Of a stretch of 64,000 nucleotides of DNA, positions 42,387 through 55,849 are shown in pieces. The DNA lies in the NCBI RefSeq assembly GCF_002980555.1, contig NZ_PVBT01000010.1:62001-126000 (forward strand), read 5' to 3'. The notes beneath the pieces are model-generated. The model searched no databases, had not been told where the DNA came from, and saw only the letters and a list, made by a program, of their open reading frames with translations. Source of the stretch: Phyllobacterium myrsinacearum (GTDB taxonomy: Bacteria; Pseudomonadota; Alphaproteobacteria; Rhizobiales; Rhizobiaceae). Position numbers and translations under genes: made by a program. Each line of letters begins with the position of its first letter. Within the stretch, counting starts at the first letter, position 1.

Positions 42387-44834
<2,448 letters not shown>

Positions 44835-44902
44835 TCAATCTTTTCTTGGCGCCGTGAACTGGCGTGAAGGACCCGGGCGAATCATGCCCGGCTACAGACC
44901 TA

Positions 44903-44931
44903 GATATAGTGGTTAATGTACATTTTTCCAA
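44903..44931 (-). promoter_or_regulatory. Candidate gyrB promoter
   Basis: On the minus strand TTGGAA (44931-44926) and TATATC (44908-44903) are separated by exactly 17 bases, a good sigma-70-type spacing. Transcription would begin about 70 bases before the gyrB start codon. It is the best promoter-like pair in the gap. Confidence 0.55.
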
Positions 44932-44935
44932 TTCT

Positions 44936-44949
44936 TAGCCTATAGGCTA
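44936..44949. promoter_or_regulatory. 14-bp perfect palindrome above gyrB promoter
   Basis: TAGCCTATAGGCTA reads identically on both strands. It ends five bases from the -35 box of the candidate gyrB promoter, the position of an activator or repressor site. Confidence 0.5.
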
Positions 44950-45099
44950 TCCACGGATCATGGCCAAAAAACGCCTGATTGACACGGAAATCTGTGCCTG
45001 AACCCTGCGGTATGGCGCAGATCAGGCGTGAGCAGGGCCAACCTTTTCCCGCAATTTGATCCGGACGCTATGGTCTGACCTGAAAGGTGACCGTGTGCG

Positions 45100-45528
45100 C
45101 TACCTGATCATCTGAATTCCCGCCGATTCCGGCTGTGCAATGGGAGACTGGGCGCCGAAAAACGCCTTGACCTCGGCAAAGTCGAGACTGCCGCTTTCGT
45201 CGCGATCGATTTCCCTGAAATGATCGGCAAAATAGCCAACACCGGCTTTTTCCGCCGAAGCGACGGTGACGCGCTGCGTGGCAGGGTCAGCAGCCCGGTC
45301 GAACAGAGAGCGGATACGCCGGTCGACAGCGCTGCCTACGCCCTCCGGCGTGATCGGCTCGGGACGTTCCCGTCCCGGCTGGTCATGCGAAGGAATGGCG
45401 CGCAGCATGCGCGTCCGCATGTCCGGATCCGGCCGGGTCAGATTGATGGAATCCCCGGCATGGGAAGCCGGCGCTTGAGCGCTGACGGCGAGCAAGACCG
45501 CGGTGATCCACAAAGCACATTTATTCAT
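45100..45528 (-). CDS. Secreted EF-hand protein, cassette copy 1
   Basis: A 142-residue exported protein: signal peptide ending ASHAGD, a Pro/Arg-rich middle, and one canonical EF-hand loop DRDESGSLDFAE at residues 108-119 with Asp at positions 1 and 3, Glu-Ser at 4-5, Gly at 6 and Glu at 12. The motif GYFADHFREID precedes it. It should bind one calcium ion. AGGAGG lies well upstream of ATG 45528, and the start overlaps the 3' end of the S10 peptidase gene by eight bases. A paralogue (53,457-53,825) sits next to the other S10 gene in the same order, so the two genes form a repeated cassette. Confidence 0.82.
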   Translation of the reverse strand: MNKCALWITAVLLAVSAQAPASHAGDSINLTRPDPDMRTRMLRAIPSHDQPGRERPEPITPEGVGSAVDRRIRSLFDRAADPATQRVTVASAEKAGVGYFADHFREIDRDESGSLDFAEVKAFFGAQSPIAQPESAGIQMIR

Positions 45529-47341
45529 GGCTATCCCCTCCTGCGAGCGGCGCATTCAACGCGGCAATCATGTTCGTCTGGGGCTGTGCATAGAATGCAT
45601 CGAGATCCTGCATGACATGTTCATAGGAACGGGTCTTGCCGGGCAGGATGCCGTGACCGCCCTCATAGGTTTTGACCGGCACCTTCACCGCCAAGCCAGC
45701 GCGCGTTATGTTCAGTTCCGTTTGATGAAACACGGTGTTGAGGTCGTAATAGCCGTGCTGGATGAGAACTTTCAGGCTGGGGTTCAAGGTCAAGGCAAAC
45801 GCCATATCCGGAAGACTGGTTGCGAACCTGCGTTCGGCACCAGGCAGCCTTGGATCAGGCAAGTAATTCCAGTTGTCGATGATGCGGCCGTTGAGACCCA
45901 GATACTCCGACGTCGGCTTGTAATTCATGAAACTGGCCTGATAGGTCTTTATGAAATCGTAATAAATATCAGTCCGGTCCAACATCGGATCGATTGTCTG
46001 CCTGGGCAAAAACTTCCGTCCGTCATTGATGAAAAGCTTACCCTGCGCCGGATCAAACCTTTCAAGGAATTGCAATGAATTGAGATTGGGGGTTTCGATC
46101 CAGGGATTGTCCTTGGGCATATCCCCTTTCTGGTACGGTTTGCCTATGCCGGTAAGCGTGTAGAGCCTATTGAGGAAATCTTCAGCATTGGGTTGACCTG
46201 CGTCCGAAACGGACCAGTTGGGTGCCTTGAGGTAAGCGTCCCAGTTGATTCGGTCAGAGGCCGCTTGCGAAACACCCGGGAATACGGCCCGATACAGACT
46301 GTTGAAAGTGGTGGCAAATGCGCGGACATCCGACAGGAATCTCGCAATCTTTGGGGCCACAGATGCTGGATCGGCCGTTGTCAGGTCCTCGGCCGTCAGA
46401 CCCTGACGTCCTGCGGGTTTGCCGTGATAGGCAGCAACCATGGCGTAGGTGGGCAGCGCTCCCCCGCAGGAGAAGTTGGATCGGCTGCAGTCTGTTTTAA
46501 TGTCCAGCATGGGCGAGTTCAGGATCAGTCCGGCAAGGATATTGGCCGGTTTGCCATCCGGGCCAGCCATATAGTCGCGGCTGCCACTTTCGATGAGCCG
46601 GCGCCCGATGATGGGCGCACGCAGACCGCCATAGGATACACCGTAAATATATTTCGGCGAGCTTTGCCGGCCGGTGAGGTTGACGTAACGGGTAATGAAA
46701 TCACGCAGGACTTCAGCATCGCTGTCGACGCCCCAGAAATCCGCATTTTCATGCGGCCGGATCGCTGTGGAATAGCCCGTGCCAACCGGATCGACAAACA
46801 CAAGATCGGTTTTGTCGAGCAGCGTATCAGGATTATCGAGCAGCCTCAGTTCCGGCGACACCGGATCGGCTTTCTTCGGCCCAAGGAAATCGAGATCCAG
46901 AACTGCAGATGCGCCGCCCGGCCCGCCATTGAAAACGAAGGTAACCGGGCGGGTTTCGCGCGGCAGGTCATCACGCGTATAGGCCGTATAGAAAATGGCG
47001 GCTTGCGCATCGAGCCCAGCCAGATCAGCTGGCTTCGGTGGGGCACTTTCCCAGTCATAGGCGATCATATGACCGGCGGTTGCGGTGAACGGAATGACGT
47101 TCCCCTTGAGGTTGATCGTCTGTGCCTTGCTGGAAGGCGTTTCGCTCACGGCCAGGCGGTCCACCGCATCGTGGAGCCCATAGGCAAAGACGGCACTCCC
47201 GGGCACCGGCTGTACAGGCTTGGGCGCCGGGGTGGTAAAAGTTCCTGACGAGGCGGTTGAATCGGATTTTCCGGAATCGGAACCGCCACTGCAGGACGCG
47301 AGAAACACCGCCAGCAGGAGCCAATACAGGCGAAAAGCCAT
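45521..47341 (-). CDS. Serine carboxypeptidase-like lipoprotein (S10), copy 1
   Basis: A 606-residue lipoprotein with lipobox LASC at about residue 18, then a Ser/Thr/Pro linker. The alpha/beta-hydrolase domain of family S10 shows the oxyanion motif FNGGPGGAS, the nucleophile Ser236 in VSYGG, Asp533 in GYYD and His563 in GGHG, so the triad is complete. S10 enzymes remove residues from peptide C-termini at acid pH or act as acyltransferases. GAGG lies upstream of the ATG. It is followed by an overlapping EF-hand gene. The nucleophile motif is VSYGG rather than the canonical ESYAG, unlike copy 2. Confidence 0.85.
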   Translation of the reverse strand: MAFRLYWLLLAVFLASCSGGSDSGKSDSTASSGTFTTPAPKPVQPVPGSAVFAYGLHDAVDRLAVSETPSSKAQTINLKGNVIPFTATAGHMIAYDWESAPPKPADLAGLDAQAAIFYTAYTRDDLPRETRPVTFVFNGGPGGASAVLDLDFLGPKKADPVSPELRLLDNPDTLLDKTDLVFVDPVGTGYSTAIRPHENADFWGVDSDAEVLRDFITRYVNLTGRQSSPKYIYGVSYGGLRAPIIGRRLIESGSRDYMAGPDGKPANILAGLILNSPMLDIKTDCSRSNFSCGGALPTYAMVAAYHGKPAGRQGLTAEDLTTADPASVAPKIARFLSDVRAFATTFNSLYRAVFPGVSQAASDRINWDAYLKAPNWSVSDAGQPNAEDFLNRLYTLTGIGKPYQKGDMPKDNPWIETPNLNSLQFLERFDPAQGKLFINDGRKFLPRQTIDPMLDRTDIYYDFIKTYQASFMNYKPTSEYLGLNGRIIDNWNYLPDPRLPGAERRFATSLPDMAFALTLNPSLKVLIQHGYYDLNTVFHQTELNITRAGLAVKVPVKTYEGGHGILPGKTRSYEHVMQDLDAFYAQPQTNMIAALNAPLAGGDSHE

Positions 47342-47622
47342 GGTCACAACCTCACAATATAAATCGATAAAATACTTAAACTATTGATATAATGAGATAA
47401 AAATTGAAAGCATATCTGGTTTTCGGCCGGCCGTTTCGACTGACTCACAAAAATGGCAGCCTATGGGATGAGTACACCCCGCCCGGCCATCCCTCGTCAA
47501 TTAGCCATTGGTCGATAGGCCAACGGCAAACCGGCGAAATGCCGGGGCATTGCAGGAATCAGGGTTGAATGGGTGGACATCGGGAAACACCATCCCCACA
47601 TTCCGGGTCTGGAGGCTGCCAT
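47342..47622. other. AT-rich divergent promoter gap
   Basis: A 280-base gap lies between the S10 gene and the divergent P450 gene. The 47,340-47,420 part is AT-rich and contains CTATTGATATAATGAG, similar to the ATTGATATATCAAT palindrome at 6636. No gene is seen. Promoters for both neighbours must lie here. Confidence 0.4.
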
Positions 47623-49002
47623 ATGGACACTGTCAGAACCGCATTCATTCCCCCCGCACCGGTGCCGCGCACGGGCCCGGTTGGTACGATCGAACTGATC
47701 CGCACCATTTACCGCAATCCGCTCGAATTGTGGGGAGAGCCGTCCTACAATGAACCATGGGTATCCATCGACTGGGCCTTCCAGCACACGATCATCGCCA
47801 ATGATCCCGGCCTGATCCGCCATGTCCTCGTCGACAACGCCAGGAATTACAAGATGGCGGCGGTGCGCCAGCGCATCCTGCGCCCGATCCTGCGCGACGG
47901 ACTGCTGACGGCCGAAGGCGAGACCTGGAAACGCTCGCGCAGGGCGATGGCCCCGGTGTTCACCCCGCGCCACATCAACGGTTTTGCCGCAGCGATGAAG
48001 CGGACCACGGAAAGCTTTGCCGAACGCTATGAAAGCGTGGCAGGCACCATCGACGTGTCCCGCGACATGACGATGCTCACCTACGATATTCTGGCGGAAA
48101 CCCTGTTTTCCGGCGAAATTGCCGGCGAACCCGATGAATTCGCTCATGAAGTCGACCGCCTGTTCGAGACAATGGGGCGGGTCGATCCGCTGGACCTCCT
48201 CGGCGCGCCGGGCTGGCTGCCGCGCTTCACCCAGATCCGCGGCCGCAGGGCACTGGCCTTCTTCCGCAAGATCGTTGCCGAGACGATCGTCCTGCGCAAG
48301 GCGCGCATGGACCGGGATGGCGATGCCGTTCCCAACGATTTCCTGACATTGCTGCTGCGCGCGGAAGGGCCGGACGGACTGTCGCGCGCCGAGATCGAAG
48401 ACAATATCATCACCTTCATTGGTGCCGGGCACGAAACCACGGCACGCGCGCTGGGCTGGACGTTCTATCTGCTGGCGCAGGCGCCATGGGAACGCGATCT
48501 GATCGAGCAGGAAATCGACGCCTTCATGCAGCAGGACCCGCTGCCGGCGCCGCATGACTGGCTGAACGCCCTGCCCTTGACGCGGGCCGCCTTCGAGGAG
48601 GCCATGCGGCTCTACCCGCCAGCGCCGTCGATCAATCGCGAACCGGTGGAAGACGACCAGTACAAGGATCTGCATATTCCCAAGGGGTCCGCCATTCTGG
48701 TCATGCCGTGGACGGTGCATCGCCATCGCCTCTACTGGGACAATCCTGAAGCCTTCGTGCCCTCGCGCTTCCATCCGGAAAACCGCGACAAGATCGACCG
48801 CTTTCAGTACCTGCCGTTCGGCGCCGGGCCGCGCGTGTGCATCGGTGCCAGCTTTGCGCTGCAGGAGGCCATCATCGCGCTGGCAACGCTGCTGCACCGC
48901 TACCGTTTCGATACGGTGGGCACCGCAAAGCCATGGCCGGTGCAGAAACTCACGACGCAACCCGATGGCGGACTGCCCATGGCGGTTTCGGCAAGGCGGT
49001 AG
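47623..49002 (+). CDS. Cytochrome P450
   Basis: A 459-residue P450 monooxygenase. Key motifs: I-helix AGHETT around residues 268-273, the K-helix EAMR at 326-329 (the ExxR pair), and the heme-binding FGAGPRVCIGASFA with the Cys thiolate ligand at 406. It lacks a membrane anchor, so it is a soluble bacterial P450 that needs ferredoxin and reductase partners from elsewhere. Substrate unknown. ATG 47623 follows GGAGG by seven bases. The neighbours give no pathway: a divergent S10 peptidase and a downstream toxin-antitoxin pair. Confidence 0.95.
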   Translation: MDTVRTAFIPPAPVPRTGPVGTIELIRTIYRNPLELWGEPSYNEPWVSIDWAFQHTIIANDPGLIRHVLVDNARNYKMAAVRQRILRPILRDGLLTAEGETWKRSRRAMAPVFTPRHINGFAAAMKRTTESFAERYESVAGTIDVSRDMTMLTYDILAETLFSGEIAGEPDEFAHEVDRLFETMGRVDPLDLLGAPGWLPRFTQIRGRRALAFFRKIVAETIVLRKARMDRDGDAVPNDFLTLLLRAEGPDGLSRAEIEDNIITFIGAGHETTARALGWTFYLLAQAPWERDLIEQEIDAFMQQDPLPAPHDWLNALPLTRAAFEEAMRLYPPAPSINREPVEDDQYKDLHIPKGSAILVMPWTVHRHRLYWDNPEAFVPSRFHPENRDKIDRFQYLPFGAGPRVCIGASFALQEAIIALATLLHRYRFDTVGTAKPWPVQKLTTQPDGGLPMAVSARR

Positions 49003-49036
49003 GGAATGGCTGCCAGACAACCAAAATCCTCACCCA

Positions 49037-49065
49037 TTGATTTCACCTGAAATTAAAGCTATATT
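49037..49065 (+). promoter_or_regulatory. Promoter of the RES/Xre toxin-antitoxin operon
   Basis: TTGATT (49037-49042) and TATATT (49060-49065) are exactly 17 bases apart. The transcription start would be near 49072, just ahead of the antitoxin start codon. Two operator-like palindromes flank this promoter. Confidence 0.65.
49041..49052. promoter_or_regulatory. TA operator copy 1 (TTTCA-N2-TGAAA)
   Basis: TTTCACCTGAAA overlaps the -35 box of the promoter. The same TTTCA-N2-TGAAA palindrome recurs 27 bases downstream, so a repressor dimer pair could cover both promoter ends. Confidence 0.65.
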
Positions 49066-49067
49066 CC

Positions 49068-49079
49068 TTTCAGATGAAA
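49068..49079. promoter_or_regulatory. TA operator copy 2 (TTTCA-N2-TGAAA)
   Basis: TTTCAGATGAAA lies over the expected transcription start and extends as CCTTTCA-GA-TGAAAGG (49066-49081). It also covers an in-frame ATG at 49074, which argues that translation starts at 49089. Confidence 0.65.
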
Positions 49080-49088
49080 GGTTTGGAT

Positions 49089-49472
49089 ATGTCGGCACTC
49101 ACCCAACGCACACCGGAACACACCAGCAAGACCGCCGTTGTTTCCAAGGCCTTGCTGCGGTCGTCCGAACTGCTCGGGCTGACCGCCAAGGAACTGTCGA
49201 CCGTGGTCGGCCTGTCGGAACCCAGCATTTCGCGCCTGAAGCGCAGCGAGGATGGCGCGCCGCTCACCGGCAAGAGTTACGAACTGGCGCTGCTTTTCAT
49301 CCGGCTCTATCGCTCGCTGGACGCCATTGTCGGCGGTGACGACAGCGTCGCCCGGCAGTGGATCCGCACCGACAACAGCATGCTGGGGGGCAAGCCGCTC
49401 AACCGCATCAAAACCATTGACGGTCTCGCCCATGTCCTTGCCTATCTGGACGCCCGACGCGCTCCGATCTGA
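49089..49472 (+). CDS. Xre/MbcA/ParS-type antitoxin (DUF2384)
   Basis: A 127-residue antitoxin. An N-terminal HTH-like half (VVSKALLRSSELLGLTAKELSTVVGLSEPSISRLKR in outline) precedes the DUF2384 toxin-binding half (LALLFIRLYRSLDAIVGG, ARQWIRTDNSMLGGKPLNRIKTIDGLAHVLAYLDARRAPI in outline), the typical layout of antitoxins that neutralise RES toxins. AAGG precedes ATG 49089; an upstream ATG at 49074 lies inside an operator. It is expected to repress its own promoter through the paired TTTCA-N2-TGAAA sites. Confidence 0.9.
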   Translation: MSALTQRTPEHTSKTAVVSKALLRSSELLGLTAKELSTVVGLSEPSISRLKRSEDGAPLTGKSYELALLFIRLYRSLDAIVGGDDSVARQWIRTDNSMLGGKPLNRIKTIDGLAHVLAYLDARRAPI

Positions 49473-50193
49473 GGCGCGCGACCGGCATGGCGCCTGCTGG
49501 CGTCTCGTCGAGGCACAACACCGCGTTTCCACCATGAAACTTGTCGATACGCTCGACGAGCAGGCTCTGCTTGAGGACGAGATCGAAGCGACCAAGCCGC
49601 CTTTGCCGCCGGATTGCGCCCGGCTCGATTATCTCCTGGCAACACCGTTCCGCTACGGCCGTTATCCCGGCAATTCCCGCTTCCGGCGCGAGGGCTATTC
49701 CCCCGGCGTGTTCTATGCCAGCGAAGCGGTTGAAACGGCAGTGGCCGAGACGGCATTCTACCGCCTCCTGTTCTTCAGCGAGAGTCCGGGAACACCTTGG
49801 CCGCGCAATGCGCTGGAATTCACCGCATTCGAAAGCCGCTATGCAACCAAGCGCGGCATTGATCTGACGGCAGCCCCCTTTGCCCGGCATGCGGAGTACT
49901 GGACCCACCTGACCGACTATTCGGCCTGCCTTGCGCTGGCCGACGCGGCGCATCAGGCAGGCATCGAGATCATCCGCTACCAGTCGGTGCGCGACCCCGC
50001 GGGCGGCGCCAATCTGGCCCTGCTCACATGCGGCGCCTTTGCCATGCCGCGCCCCACGCATACGACCACGTGGCGGCTGGTGTTTTCCGATTACGGCGTC
50101 AAGGCCATCTGCGACCAGCCGGACATCCGGCTGGGTTTCAGCCGCGCGATCTTTGCCCGCGACCCGCGCATGGCCGGGGTGCTGCGCCGTTAA
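49432..50193 (+). CDS. RES-domain toxin (NAD-degrading type)
   Basis: A 253-residue RES-family toxin. It has the typical N-terminus WRLVEAQHRVSTMKLVDTL, the ADP-ribosyltransferase-fold core FRYGRYPGNSRFRREGYSPGVFYAS with Arg and Tyr residues of the NAD pocket, and a second part VAETAFYRLLFF. RES toxins such as MbcT deplete NAD or modify targets with ADP-ribose, stopping growth when the antitoxin is lost. The start ATG lies 41 bases inside the antitoxin gene's 3' end, so production is coupled. It converges with fghA, overlapping by four bases at the stop. Confidence 0.92.
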   Translation: MSLPIWTPDALRSEARDRHGACWRLVEAQHRVSTMKLVDTLDEQALLEDEIEATKPPLPPDCARLDYLLATPFRYGRYPGNSRFRREGYSPGVFYASEAVETAVAETAFYRLLFFSESPGTPWPRNALEFTAFESRYATKRGIDLTAAPFARHAEYWTHLTDYSACLALADAAHQAGIEIIRYQSVRDPAGGANLALLTCGAFAMPRPTHTTTWRLVFSDYGVKAICDQPDIRLGFSRAIFARDPRMAGVLRR

Positions 50194-51029
50194 GACGAAC
50201 CGAGCCGCACGGCGTGCCAGGCGATATGATCGGCCATGAAGGTGGAAATGAAGAAATAGGAATGGTCGTAGCCATCGCGCATGTGGAGCGTCAGCGGAAT
50301 GTTGGCATGCCGGCACGCCTCTTCCAGGAGCCACGGGCGCAGGCCGTCATCGAGAAAGCCGTCGGCCTTGCCCTGATCCACCAACAGTTCCGGCACGCGG
50401 TGACCGTCCTCGATCAAAAGCACGCTGTCATAGGCGCGCCAGGCCGCCTCATCGGTGCCGAGATATTTTTCAAAGGCCGGACGCGACCAGCCCGCGACAC
50501 CCGGCCGGGCGATCGGGGCGAAGGCGGAAACCGAACGGTAACGGCCGGGGTGTTTCAACGCCAGCGTGATGGCGCCGTGCCCGCCCATGGAATGACCGAA
50601 AATACCCTGCCGCGCCATATCGACGGGAAAATTGGCGCCGATCAGCGCCGGCAGCTCCTGCGCGATATAGCTCGCCATGCGGTAGTTGGCGGCATAGGGC
50701 GCCTCGGTCGCATCCAGATAAAATCCGGCGCCGGACCCGAACTGCCAATTGTCCTTTTCATCCGGCACGTGATCGCCGCGCGGGCTGGTATCCGGGCAGA
50801 TGATGGCAACGCCGTGCGCGGCCGCCGCCCGGCGGTATTCGCCTTTATCCATGACGTTCTGGTGGGTGCAGGTGAGGCCCGAGAGATACCACAGCACCGG
50901 CACCGGGCCATCCTTGGCCTGCGGCGGCAGGAACACCGCAAAAGTCATGTCGCACTGGCAGACATCGCTGCGATGGCGGTAGACACCCTGCGTGCCGTCA
51001 AAACTTCTGGCGATCGATAGCGTTTCCAT
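50190..51029 (-). CDS. fghA: S-formylglutathione hydrolase
   Basis: A 279-residue esterase-D-type alpha/beta hydrolase that splits S-formylglutathione into formate and glutathione, the second step of glutathione-dependent formaldehyde detoxification. Motifs: LSGLTCTHQNVMDKGEYRR at residues 49-67 in outline, the nucleophile Ser147 in GHSMGGHG, and C-terminal GYDHSYFFISTF with the catalytic His. It is the last gene of the frmA operon, 27 bases after the DUF1345 gene. Confidence 0.96.
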   Translation of the reverse strand: METLSIARSFDGTQGVYRHRSDVCQCDMTFAVFLPPQAKDGPVPVLWYLSGLTCTHQNVMDKGEYRRAAAAHGVAIICPDTSPRGDHVPDEKDNWQFGSGAGFYLDATEAPYAANYRMASYIAQELPALIGANFPVDMARQGIFGHSMGGHGAITLALKHPGRYRSVSAFAPIARPGVAGWSRPAFEKYLGTDEAAWRAYDSVLLIEDGHRVPELLVDQGKADGFLDDGLRPWLLEEACRHANIPLTLHMRDGYDHSYFFISTFMADHIAWHAVRLGSS

Positions 51030-51056
51030 GACAATTCCCGTGGTTTTTTGAGCTGA

Positions 51057-51707
51057 TTACTGGCCGAGCGCGACAGCGACATTGACCGCCGCTGCGACAA
51101 GCACCGTGTTGAAGAAGAAAGAAACGATGGCGTGCAGCAGGTTGACCCTGCGCATTTCGGTGCTGGTGACCGCCGTATCGGAGGTTTGCGCGGTCATGCC
51201 GATAACAAAGGAGAAATACAGAAACTCGATGCCGCCCGGCTCCTTTTCGCCGGGGAAATCCAGCCCGCCCACATGTTTGCGCGGCTTGTCCTTGGTGCCC
51301 TCTACCGTTTCATCCGGCTGCCAGTAGAGATGGGCATAATGGATGGCGGCCATGGCATGGATGGTCGCCCAGCCCAGCGGCACGGCGGCCAGCGCGGGCA
51401 CAAGATTGATCAGCTGCGGGTTCTTGCCGCTGTTGATCAGCACGAAAAGCGAGCCCACCGCCACGACAACCGTGCCGAGGGTAACGGCAAAGATGATCGC
51501 CATGGGTTCGTCGGAACGGGCGGCATTCTTCCGGAGAAAATCCGCCGTCAGCCGGCGGATCTTGAACGCCGTCAGGATGAGATAGACGATGAAGAAGGTG
51601 TTTGCCCCGAGCACATAGGCAAGATGCGGATAAAACATCAGGGCAAGCGCCAGCGCGGCGAGACCGGCGATGGCGGCGATATAAAAGGGGTTGTGCCGGC
51701 GCAGCAT
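51057..51707 (-). CDS. DUF1345 membrane protein
   Basis: A 216-residue protein with about five transmembrane helices. The family signature includes FKIRRLTADFLRKNAARSDEP, HAMAAIHYAHLYW and GGIEFLYFSFVIGMTAQTSDTAVTSTEMRR in outline. DUF1345 proteins are conserved bacterial membrane proteins of unknown role. It lies between the elaA-like gene (seven-base gap) and fghA (27-base gap), so it is part of the formaldehyde-detoxification transcript, a placement not explained by any known function. Confidence 0.88.
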   Translation of the reverse strand: MLRRHNPFYIAAIAGLAALALALMFYPHLAYVLGANTFFIVYLILTAFKIRRLTADFLRKNAARSDEPMAIIFAVTLGTVVVAVGSLFVLINSGKNPQLINLVPALAAVPLGWATIHAMAAIHYAHLYWQPDETVEGTKDKPRKHVGGLDFPGEKEPGGIEFLYFSFVIGMTAQTSDTAVTSTEMRRVNLLHAIVSFFFNTVLVAAAVNVAVALGQ

Positions 51708-51714
51708 CGGCCGT

Positions 51715-52190
51715 CTACCGCGATGTCTGGGCCGTCACGGGCCGCTGCATGTCGACATGGGGAATACCGTCTTCCAGATATTCGCCCGATACCGGCAGAA
51801 AGCCGAAGGATTCATAAAACCGCTGCAGGTGGCTTTGTGCCGACAGCGCGATGGGGCGGCCGGGAAAGCGGGTTTCGCAGGCGGCAATGGCCTCTGCCAT
51901 CAGCGTCTCGCCGAGCCGCTGGCCGCGATGCGCGGGCGAAACGACGACCCGGCCGATGCGCGCCGCATCCATGCCGCCATGCGGCGGGCGCAGGCGGGCG
52001 CTCGCCACCAGCGCATCGCCCTGGAGAAGCCGCAGGTGCAGCGCTTCGCCATCCTTGCCGTCGAGTTCCGGATAGGGGCATTTCTGCTCGACCACGAAGA
52101 CATCGACCCGCAGGCGCAGCATGGCATAGAGATCGCGCGGGCTGAACGCATCCATCCCGCGCACATCCACCCTGTAGCCGTCACCGGCCA

Positions 52191-52191
<1 letters not shown>
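51715..52191 (-). CDS. GNAT acetyltransferase (ElaA family)
   Basis: A 158-residue N-acetyltransferase of the GNAT superfamily. The ElaA-type start LYAMLRLRVDVFVVEQKCPYPELDGKD in outline is characteristic, and the acetyl-CoA-binding loop follows as IGRVVVSPAHRGQRLGETLM near residue 80, then the FYESFGFLPVSGEYLEDGIPHVDM end. The acceptor is unknown. Its ATG overlaps the frmA stop by one base (ATGA), so the two are translated together. Confidence 0.9.
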
Positions 52192-53303
<1,112 letters not shown>

Positions 53304-53456
53304 GCGGATTCTCCCTGATGCGTCTTTCAAAGTGCGGTCTACTGATTTGCAGTTGTGCACTATCAGGATCACACCGGGGATCGTCAATCAAATCGGCGAC
53401 ATTTCTGGTCGGGGAAGGCGCTTCTTGACGCGCCTTGCTCCCGCAGCGGCTTTCTC

Positions 53457-53825
53457 TTACTCGACCACCTGCACCTTCTTTGCAGCCCTTGCTCTTGCTG
53501 CCGGGAGGGGCGAACGCGCATCAAGGAAGGTCTGCACATCATCGAAGGTAATGTAACCGTCCCGGTCCTTGTCGATCTGTGCAAAATGCTCGGCGATGAA
53601 GCCCCAGCCGGCGTTGCCTGCCGCTTGCGCAGTCAGAAGATGATTGGACGATGCAACTGCATCGAACTTGGCTCGCAGTTCCTGATCAAGCTGCCTCTGG
53701 ATCGAGATTGCATCCTGCTTGACTGATTTTGTGCCTGGCTCAGGACGCCAGACACGATCACCGGCTTGGGCTGACCCACCAGCCAGCGAGGTCAGGAGGA
53801 GCGAAATGAAGATTATGCGGGACAT
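53457..53825 (-). CDS. Secreted EF-hand protein, cassette copy 2
   Basis: A 122-residue exported protein: signal peptide ending GGSAQAGD, a helical region with QRQLDQELRAKFDAVASSN and one EF-hand loop DKDRDGYITFDD at residues 85-96. Position 12 of the loop is Asp rather than the usual Glu, which normally lowers affinity for calcium. Upstream, GWGFIAEHFAQID parallels GYFADHFREID in the other copy. It starts 11 bases after the S10 gene, so they are co-transcribed. The loop and flanks mark it as a paralogue of the gene at 45,100-45,528. Confidence 0.82.
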   Translation of the reverse strand: MSRIIFISLLLTSLAGGSAQAGDRVWRPEPGTKSVKQDAISIQRQLDQELRAKFDAVASSNHLLTAQAAGNAGWGFIAEHFAQIDKDRDGYITFDDVQTFLDARSPLPAARARAAKKVQVVE

Positions 53826-53836
53826 GGATCGCTCTC

Positions 53837-55849
53837 CTATTTGAGGGCTGCAGCGGGGATGGGTGCGGCGTCTTGCGACAATGCAGGACGCAAGGATTGA
53901 GCTTTGGCAATCGTCGGCCCGGTGCCATAGGGCGGCGCGTCGTAGAATTCATCGAGCGCCTTTATCAGCGATGGCCGCGATTCCTGGGCATAATAGATCA
54001 TGTGCCCACCCACGAAATTCTTTACCGGAACCCGTTTGTCGAGAGCAGCATCTTTAAGGTCAAGCTCTGAGCGATGGAAAGGCGTTATTGTGTCGTAGTA
54101 ACCATGCACGGTCAAAAGCTTGAGCGAAGGATCGCGCGCAATGGCCGCCACGATATTGGGCAAACCAGTTGCACCAGCCTTGTCTTGCCAAAGCTCGAAT
54201 GCCAGCTCTGGTCCTTTCACCGCATCCGGATCCGGCGTCTGCCAGGACGCATTGATATAGCGCGCGCGCGGCTTGTAGTTGACATGTGCCGGCAGGTAAC
54301 TGGTGATCCTGTTGTTCAAGGCATCTTCTTCGAAGTGATCGAAATTATACTTCAATGCCTTAAAGCCCAACTTCGGATATTTCGGATTTAATTCTTTTAG
54401 TTTTACATGCATTCGCCCATCATAGGCATTGAAATCATAGCCGGGCATCAAGGCTGCAGCGTACGGTTTGAAATTTAGTTCGCCCCCGGAGTAGGCGGGT
54501 ATTCGCTTCGGAAGGCCTGTATAGGGCGAGGCGATAAAAGTTAGGTCGCGGGCGTATTTTGCGGCAATATCCCCGAGGGTTGCGGCGTAAGACTCAAGCG
54601 AGGTCTCTTTGCTGCGCGCGGTGGATTTTCCCAGAGCGTCGGCGACCATGGCAAAGGTGGGAAAGTCGCCGTCGATCTGATCCGCACTGCTGTAGTCGAA
54701 CACAGGTGAATGGAACACAGATCCAGAGAGGGCCTTGAATTTGGATTTGTCGGCACCTTCGGCCTTCTCATAACCGTCAGTGCCTGCATCCACCAATGCC
54801 AGGGTGAGTTTGGGCACGCGGATGCCGCCGGCATAGGATTCGCCATAGAGATATTTCGGCGATTCCTGCCGACGATTGAAATTGATGTAGCGCGTGATGA
54901 ATTGCCTGGAAAGTTCAACGTCCTTGTCAGTCGCCCAGAAGGTCAGATTGGTATTTGGGGCGATGGCTTCGGAAAATCCGCTGCCCGGAACAATGTCGAC
55001 AAAGACGAGATCGGTCCTGTCGATCAGCGACTCCTGACTGTCGATGAAGGGAAATTCCTGCGGCCGCCCGTCGGCCCACACATCCGGCACGTTGAGCGCA
55101 TCGATGACAACATGTTTGGGTGCCCACGAGGCGAGATGCAGATAGACTGATGAAGCGCCCGGCCCACCATTGAAGAAGAAGGTGACAGGACGATTTTCCT
55201 TCGACAAATCGTCGCGCGTATAGGCTGTGTAGAAGATTGACGCCTGTGGATACTGCTTTTCCGGATTCTTGGCATAGGCGGTCAGATGACCGGCCGACGC
55301 GGTGTACCAGAAGCTTTGCCCGTTCAGCGTCATCTTATGGTGCATCACAGCGGGTTTTTCATCGATAGCTGCAGCAAGATAAGCACGCGGGAGGCCGCTA
55401 TATTTGGCGTTGTCTTCGAGCACATAGTCCGCGGGCGCGTAGAGCTTGTACGCTTCCTCGTCCAGACCAGCTCTTGCATAGAGCGCCGCCACGGCCTTTT
55501 TAGGCGCAATCTTCGTTAGTTCACCGGCCGCCTCCGCAATCTTGCCCTCAACCAGGAAGGCCTCAACCGTACGCAGCAAGCTATTTTCCACAGTCAGACC
55601 AGCGGCTTCGAAAATTTTGGCAGCGTCGATAAAATGTCCCGCTTCGATCAGATCGTCGGCACGAATATGAGCAGTTTCAAGCGATACTGCTTCGGGCTGG
55701 ATTTTAGCTGTGGGCGCTTCATTCGATTCCACAGCAGCAACGGGCACCGCTTCGGACGCAAACGTGCTTTCGGAAACGGGACTGTCGGCACTGTTGTTGC
55801 AGGCGGCCAATGCAGCCAGCATTGACAGCGAGAGAATTCGTAATTTCAT
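53837..55849 (-). CDS. Serine carboxypeptidase-like lipoprotein (S10), copy 2
   Basis: A 670-residue lipoprotein with lipobox AAC at about residue 16 and a linker of about 45 residues. A region of roughly 110 residues (about 60-170) with a repeat-like helical pattern (AHIRADDLIEAGHFIDAAKIFEAAG) precedes the peptidase domain; copy 1 lacks it. The S10 domain has FNGGPGASSVY, the nucleophile Ser338 in the canonical GESYAG motif, Asp586 in GYYD and His616 in GGHM, a complete triad. It may remove C-terminal residues from peptides in the periplasm. It is paired with an EF-hand gene just downstream. Confidence 0.87.
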   Translation of the reverse strand: MKLRILSLSMLAALAACNNSADSPVSESTFASEAVPVAAVESNEAPTAKIQPEAVSLETAHIRADDLIEAGHFIDAAKIFEAAGLTVENSLLRTVEAFLVEGKIAEAAGELTKIAPKKAVAALYARAGLDEEAYKLYAPADYVLEDNAKYSGLPRAYLAAAIDEKPAVMHHKMTLNGQSFWYTASAGHLTAYAKNPEKQYPQASIFYTAYTRDDLSKENRPVTFFFNGGPGASSVYLHLASWAPKHVVIDALNVPDVWADGRPQEFPFIDSQESLIDRTDLVFVDIVPGSGFSEAIAPNTNLTFWATDKDVELSRQFITRYINFNRRQESPKYLYGESYAGGIRVPKLTLALVDAGTDGYEKAEGADKSKFKALSGSVFHSPVFDYSSADQIDGDFPTFAMVADALGKSTARSKETSLESYAATLGDIAAKYARDLTFIASPYTGLPKRIPAYSGGELNFKPYAAALMPGYDFNAYDGRMHVKLKELNPKYPKLGFKALKYNFDHFEEDALNNRITSYLPAHVNYKPRARYINASWQTPDPDAVKGPELAFELWQDKAGATGLPNIVAAIARDPSLKLLTVHGYYDTITPFHRSELDLKDAALDKRVPVKNFVGGHMIYYAQESRPSLIKALDEFYDAPPYGTGPTIAKAQSLRPALSQDAAPIPAAALK

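Follow-up and report, generated by a model that had tools for sequence, protein, structure and literature searches.

Serine carboxypeptidases of family S10 (PF00450) include KEX1, carboxypeptidase Y and wheat carboxypeptidase II. The available text of one paper presents the family through its eukaryotic members (PMC11878206). EF-hand proteins have also been reported from bacteria, namely EfhP (PMC9132961, PMC4053335, PMC11559002) and CaBP (PMC13171946), as far as the accessible parts of these papers go, and the terms carboxypeptidase, peptidase and Phyllobacterium do not occur in the accessible part of a review on calcium proteins of rhizobacteria (PMC10574481). In a stretch of 64,000 nucleotides of Phyllobacterium myrsinacearum (positions 62,001-126,000 of NZ_PVBT01000010.1; hereafter the window), two genes for S10 carboxypeptidases with a lipobox, S10a and S10b, are each followed by the gene of a small secreted EF-hand protein, EFa and EFb, respectively. 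No description of such an S10/EF-hand pair was found in a limited literature search of open-licence papers, which agrees with a preliminary description of the window and is no proof of absence. To our knowledge, many bacterial EF-hand proteins have no known target; the cassette provides a clear genetic link of an EF-hand-type protein to a defined enzyme in bacteria. Here we weigh the reading that the S10 enzyme and the EF-hand-fold protein of each cassette are the two subunits of a single envelope carboxypeptidase, for which we estimate a probability of about one half.

Calpain resembles the cassette in that a protease is paired with a small EF-hand protein, which in the cassette is the proposed subunit; calpain belongs to a different protease family, is cytosolic and has five EF-hands. 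Lipases with a specific foldase share with the cassette that a secreted hydrolase has a dedicated partner encoded just downstream, and lipase-specific foldases are membrane-tethered helical proteins.

The preliminary description had reported two S10 lipoproteins with a Ser/Asp/His triad and, right after each, a small secreted EF-hand protein, and all four genes were recovered accordingly on the minus strand. S10a (606 amino acids, 45521-47341) and S10b (670 amino acids, 53837-55849) matched the Pfam S10 domain with 53.2 and 44.2 bits, respectively, both above the cut-off of 21.9; a scan against NCBIfam gave no match above cut-off. Besides this domain, they have in common with the known S10 enzymes the FNGGPG motif, the nucleophile elbow and the order of Ser, Asp and His. 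From the family positions in the alignment, the triad of S10a was assigned to Ser236, Asp533 and His563 (codons 46634-46636, 45743-45745 and 45653-45655) and that of S10b to Ser338, Asp586 and His616 (codons 54836-54838, 54092-54094 and 54002-54004). Among solved chains, the S10 profile matched KEX1 alone at an E value of 0.01, and the predicted S10 structure attained a predicted local distance difference test score (pLDDT) of only 32.6. In comparison with the known members (MEROPS S10), the window enzymes are bacterial, carry a lipobox and a variable stalk, have a separate EF-hand partner and, in the S10a group, contain Val in place of Glu. The lipobox Cys17, encoded at 47291-47293 in S10a and at 55799-55801 in S10b, is found in the patterns LASC17 and LAAC17, respectively. 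Differences between the copies were as first described: the nucleophile motif is GVSYGG in S10a and GESYAGG in S10b, and S10b has a longer N-terminal stretch between Cys17 and the catalytic domain.

EFa (142 amino acids, 45100-45528) shares 8 bases with S10a, and EFb (122 amino acids, 53457-53825) starts 11 bases after the end of S10b, in line with the tight spacing already claimed. Shine-Dalgarno-like sites lie directly 5' of both EF start codons (AGGAGGGG for EFa, AGGAG for EFb), and that of EFb overlaps the stop codon of S10b, which suggests translational coupling. A scan of 44800-47600 for promoters and terminators gave one promoter-like site (1.6 expected) and no terminator (2.6 expected). 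Both EF proteins carry a Sec-type signal, the end of which, as judged by eye, is probably SHA/GD in EFa (45457-45465) and AQA/GD in EFb (53763-53771). Pairwise alignment showed that the copies are homologous, as claimed, with 29% identity over 119 columns for EFa and EFb (E value 4e-14, single comparison) and 34% over 560 columns for S10a and S10b.

The Pfam domain EF-hand_6 (cut-off 25) was matched by EFb above the cut-off (26.5) and by EFa below it (18.9). In both proteins the second EF loop is canonical, DRDESGSLDFAE in EFa (45172-45207) and DKDRDGYITFDD in EFb (53538-53573), with ligands at positions 1, 3, 5 and 12 of the 12-residue loop; position 12 is E in EFa and D in EFb, as the preliminary description had stated. 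Such a ligand set is absent from the first loop region, which is degenerate in EFb (VASSNHLLTAQAAG, 53616-53657, from the sequence and the model) and, as inferred from the alignment with EFb and the EFb model, also in EFa (AADPATQRVTVASAE, 45250-45294), where an acidic ligand set is missing. The partner appears to be an EF-hand pair in which the first loop is degenerate. The 50 matches listed by Foldseek for the EFb model were all EF-hand proteins, mostly S100; the penta-EF-hand of calpain-3 appeared among the structure matches to EFb. In S100 proteins the first loop is non-canonical and the second canonical, and among the S100/calmodulin-type pairs it is S100 that the cassette partners resemble in their degenerate first and canonical second loop. 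The single EF-hand of the preliminary description was set aside, since the alignment, the moderate-confidence model and the structure matches to residues 39-108 fit a pair better.

Pairing of the two genes was surveyed in 60 genomes, comprising the source, 20 others of the genus and 39 of other genera (G labels denote genomes, with G000 for the source genome, and L labels denote loci). Matches to S10b and to EFb were each present in the source genome and in 18 of the 20 other Phyllobacterium genomes, the same two members (G012 and G016) being without either; in the other genera, S10b matched 2/39 and EFb 0/39. Three named loci coding for a close S10b relative likewise belong to Phyllobacterium. 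Around the matches, 58 regions were fetched in addition to two of the source genome. Of the EF-family open reading frames (ORFs) in these Phyllobacterium regions, 53 of 55 had an S10 ORF or a fragment of one no more than 1 kb away, where the 53 include two that match both families (L061, L096) and some of the S10 neighbors are fragments. Among S10 rows of the genus with at least 420 amino acids, 49 of 76 had a downstream EF gene; in 43 of the 49 the two genes were spaced by -71 to +57 bp, most commonly -4 (15 rows) or +11 (9 rows). The 27 unpartnered rows consist of 13 outside the clade described below, two cut by contig ends, one S10-EF fusion ORF, five in tandem, five with no EF near and one fragment. 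In the source genome, three S10 genes exceeded the Pfam cut-off and two EF genes were found, both in the window. The third S10 gene (L004:6017-8887, plus strand, contig 4 of G000) encodes 956 amino acids with an S10 and a subtilase-type domain (PF00082), has no EF partner and falls outside the partnered clade. A close S10 relative of similar length is present in G004 (L049).

A tree of 130 S10 rows with at least 450 amino acids, in which the 30 Burkholderia loci L153-L182 are represented by only 6, was built by a quick method with a midpoint root and has several long end branches. One clade of 74 rows, supported by 99 in the Shimodaira-Hasegawa-like approximate likelihood-ratio test (SH-aLRT), contained all 61 rows scored as partnered, together with 11 unpartnered and two unscored rows at contig ends; L172 was scored as unpartnered here, yet has a partner. 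None of the 56 rows outside the clade was partnered. The preliminary description had left the cassette to be judged by whether homologues usually lack the partner; with 61 of 72 scored clade rows partnered and nearly all EF ORFs near S10, the neighborhoods favor it within this one clade. The lipobox pattern was present in 82 of 97 clade rows versus 0 of 56 outside, with Burkholderia rows absent from the tree assigned to the clade by likeness, and in 9 of the 13 pattern misses listed a lipobox was visible by eye. From the lipobox Cys to the first catalytic motif, 66 measurable rows span 85-417 residues, as in a stalk. On the tree, the partner falls into one clade that also bears the lipobox; it then persisted in Phyllobacterium, across many duplications, and in Burkholderia. 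Most simply, the partner would have been gained once and have come to both Burkholderia and Phyllobacterium by transfer or from a common ancestor, with frequent duplication in Phyllobacterium and a few losses.

S10a and S10b fall into different subclades, each of which spans several Phyllobacterium genomes, so that the two window cassettes are old paralogues. A recent duplication was therefore rejected; the two homologous gene pairs of the duplicated cassette first described stand. Distances between enzymes and between their partners were correlated in a mirror-tree comparison (r 0.769, n=57; permutation maximum 0.181 in 5000), also within Phyllobacterium alone (r 0.798, n=46; permutation maximum 0.224); pairs more than 200 bp apart and any second enzyme that shares an EF with another were left out of this comparison. 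This fits inheritance as a unit. The median ratio of nonsynonymous to synonymous substitution rates (dN/dS) was 0.17-0.22 for the S10a, S10b, EFa and EFb groups of eight genes, finite values being obtained from only 12/28 S10a and 21/28 EFa pairs.

In searches that scored at most ten candidates per genome, the EF-family profile matched 1/397 genomes of the order, which was the source genome itself, and 7/398 of the phylum, the source included. The strongest foreign match was G717, assigned to Burkholderia by its closeness to B. arboris on the S10 tree, which harbors two S10-EF cassettes. The S10 profile matched 44/299 genomes of the phylum and 60/61 of the genus of G717; S10 is thus also common in bacteria, which qualifies the first characterization of these enzymes as best known from eukaryotic vacuoles. 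A partner was present at 29 of the 30 Burkholderia loci L153-L182, L182 being cut by a contig end; these loci were the best matches of the S10 profile search, and the sample therefore favors the partnered clade. In 12 further hand-chosen Burkholderia regions with 13 S10 ORFs, seven were partnered, with the partner inside a longer overlapping ORF in L184 and L189; no partner was found for the second of the S10 ORFs of L186 or for the S10 of L183, L187, L190, L192 and L194, the last of these at a contig end. For Paraburkholderia, the pair was found at both loci read.

Plasmid-class replicons of Burkholderia arboris and Paraburkholderia carry the pair as well, which was detected in 4 of 15 plasmid regions read (L108-L111). 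No pair was seen in the plasmid regions of Caballeronia (three), Burkholderia stagnalis, Sphingobium, Sphingomonas, Chloroflexota, Serratia, Deinococcus, Rhizobium and one Phyllobacterium plasmid. Searches with the EF proteins matched 2 and 4 plasmid records, the latter including Klebsiella and Cupriavidus. At the loci L124-L152, one from each of 29 of the 43 other phylum genomes matched by the S10 profile, the EF profile search found no partner, though diverged partners could escape it. A regular expression for the canonical loop gave a match near 1 of 44 unpartnered S10 genes, a weak control that recovers just 19 of 49 known partners. In the Sphingobium yanoikuyae plasmid (L115), two unpartnered S10 genes come immediately after a gene that carries the annotation TonB-dependent receptor, and this order may point to a link of this S10 type with peptide uptake.

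In the two-subunit reading, the S10 protein would be exported and, as predicted from the lipobox, lipid-anchored on a stalk of variable length, and would process peptides or proteins at the surface of the cell or in its periplasm, as a serine carboxypeptidase or a closely related enzyme. The downstream EF gene is probably translated in coupling with the S10 gene, and its product, a soluble secreted EF-hand-pair protein, would bind its own S10 as a dedicated stabilizing or regulatory subunit. A single calcium ion would sit in the second loop of most Phyllobacterium copies. Calcium is usually plentiful outside the cytoplasm, so that the bound ion is likelier to be structural than a switch.

The same gene arrangement would suit a dedicated folding helper (steric chaperone) for the S10 enzyme, in the style of the lipase foldases, that need not stay bound: the EF gene stands directly downstream, has its own signal peptide, is paired one-to-one and is restricted to a single clade on the tree, and S10 enzymes outside this clade manage without it. 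We consider such a role rather unlikely, because the triad persists in several S10 genes of the clade that have no partner, L084, where Thr occupies the nucleophile position, being an exception, and because it would leave the conservation of the calcium loop in 42 of 55 Phyllobacterium rows unexplained. L084 (9027-10994) is an S10 paralogue with the motif GDTFDG, and its sublineage is often without an EF gene of its own.

Several observations weigh against two subunits of one enzyme. Ten S10 genes on the tree of the clade lack their own EF, five as tandem neighbors of another cassette and five with none near; without a nearby EF are the clade S10 genes of L052 (twice), L068, L082 and L084, and also the fragment L094. 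At L092, a truncated S10 is found beside an intact EF gene. Of the two EF ORFs remote from S10, L087 lies at a contig end, and the EF gene of L054, whose loop is degenerate, stands alone as a genuine orphan. At L061 (7516-9657, minus strand), an ORF runs from the S10 domain into the EF partner domain with the tail retained; Pfam detects only S10 in it and the signal peptide is in another frame, so that the fusion gene may be decaying and is weakened as strong proof of contact. The correlated distances are no proof of contact either, since block inheritance predicts them for any gene pair. The four-ligand rule for calcium was met in 42/55 Phyllobacterium rows and 1/6 Burkholderia-group rows, and the degenerate loops in the remaining 13 and 5 rows argue that calcium is not needed everywhere. 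Finally, five weaker matches to the EF profile (L102-L106) are small EF-hand proteins in loci of about 3.2 kb without S10.

A calcium switch as constant function is weakened by the same degenerate loops; for the calcium-binding partner of the preliminary description, the canonical second loop of the window copies holds, and part of the family has lost the ligands. Overall, the interpretation given there is partly supported, and the reading as a conserved two-gene cassette is well supported. At L044 (4488-4919), L057 (9381-9815) and L054 (9639-10100), the second loop is fully degenerate and the C-terminal pentapeptide is kept. A short remnant ORF at L096 (9449-10033, plus strand) matches the S10 and EF families, as if after an internal deletion.

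The relatives without S10 would suit an EF protein that serves as an independent periplasmic calcium sensor or buffer and is merely co-expressed with the peptidase, and bacterial EF-hand proteins with such roles have been reported in the accessible parts of two papers (EfhP, PMC9132961; CaBP, PMC13171946). Of the explanations considered, this one receives the least credence, as 53 of 55 EF ORFs stay beside an S10 sequence across many paralogous cassettes and the loops are degenerate in some copies that retain the rest. At L102 and L103, in two genomes of the family of G717 (f109), the EF-hand-type gene is found just upstream of an apparent response regulator and sensor kinase.

The Phyllobacterium partners end in a pentapeptide with the consensus V/I-Q-V/I-V/I-E after a linker of variable length (n=55; V/I at -5 in 53, Q at -4 in 50, V/I at -3 in 47, V/I at -2 in 54 and E at -1 in 45). 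In the window it reads VQVVE in EFb (53460-53474) and IQMIR in EFa (45103-45117), the latter with Arg instead of Glu at the end. Nonsynonymous differences per site (pN) in these five codons were few compared with synonymous ones (pS), with 0.03 vs 0.32 for eight EFb genes and 0.18 vs 0.77 for eight EFa genes, whereas the last five codons of the enzymes gave 0.17 vs 0.29 and 0.52 vs 0.51. That a conserved, free C-terminus occurs next to a carboxypeptidase prompts the idea of a pseudosubstrate, in which the EF protein is an inhibitor whose pentapeptide enters the S10 active site on its flexible linker, and both the conservation behind a variable linker and the scarcity of nonsynonymous changes speak for it. 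We nevertheless regard an inhibitor as distinctly unlikely: none of 33 Burkholderia-group rows has the tail (one gene is counted twice among them, since L101 and L160 denote a single place in G717), the window EFa departs from the terminal Glu, and strands 34-38 and 117-121 of the EFb model may pair within the protein, albeit with low confidence. Given this possible pairing, the tail is no less likely to be a structural strand than a pseudosubstrate, and it was not accepted as a proven active-site insert. An elaboration of the two-subunit reading, in which a calcium-loaded EF-hand pair is docked on S10, the pentapeptide acts as built-in pseudosubstrate that gates the active site and diversification of the subfamilies has given several parallel enzyme-gate pairs per cell, appears more doubtful still. 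Natural variants with or without calcium ligands, tail or partner open the role of each part to laboratory testing.

The residue before the nucleophile Ser is Val in 15/15 S10a-type rows and Glu in S10b. In carboxypeptidase Y, the Glu of GESY helps to bind the terminal carboxylate of the substrate, and from the Val-for-Glu swap in the sequences a division of labor between S10a and S10b is plausible.

The block around both cassettes includes a P450 gene identified by Pfam, and further genes that we take from their sequence to be gyrB, fghA and frmA. ORF families of this block recur by the cassettes of other genomes at up to 18 loci; the scan chiefly recovered synteny, with many antisense shadow ORFs. 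Between the two cassettes, the window contains a pair of genes for an Xre/MbcA/ParS antitoxin and a RES-domain protein (49074-50193, plus strand), and ORFs similar to this pair recur by cassettes at 17 loci.

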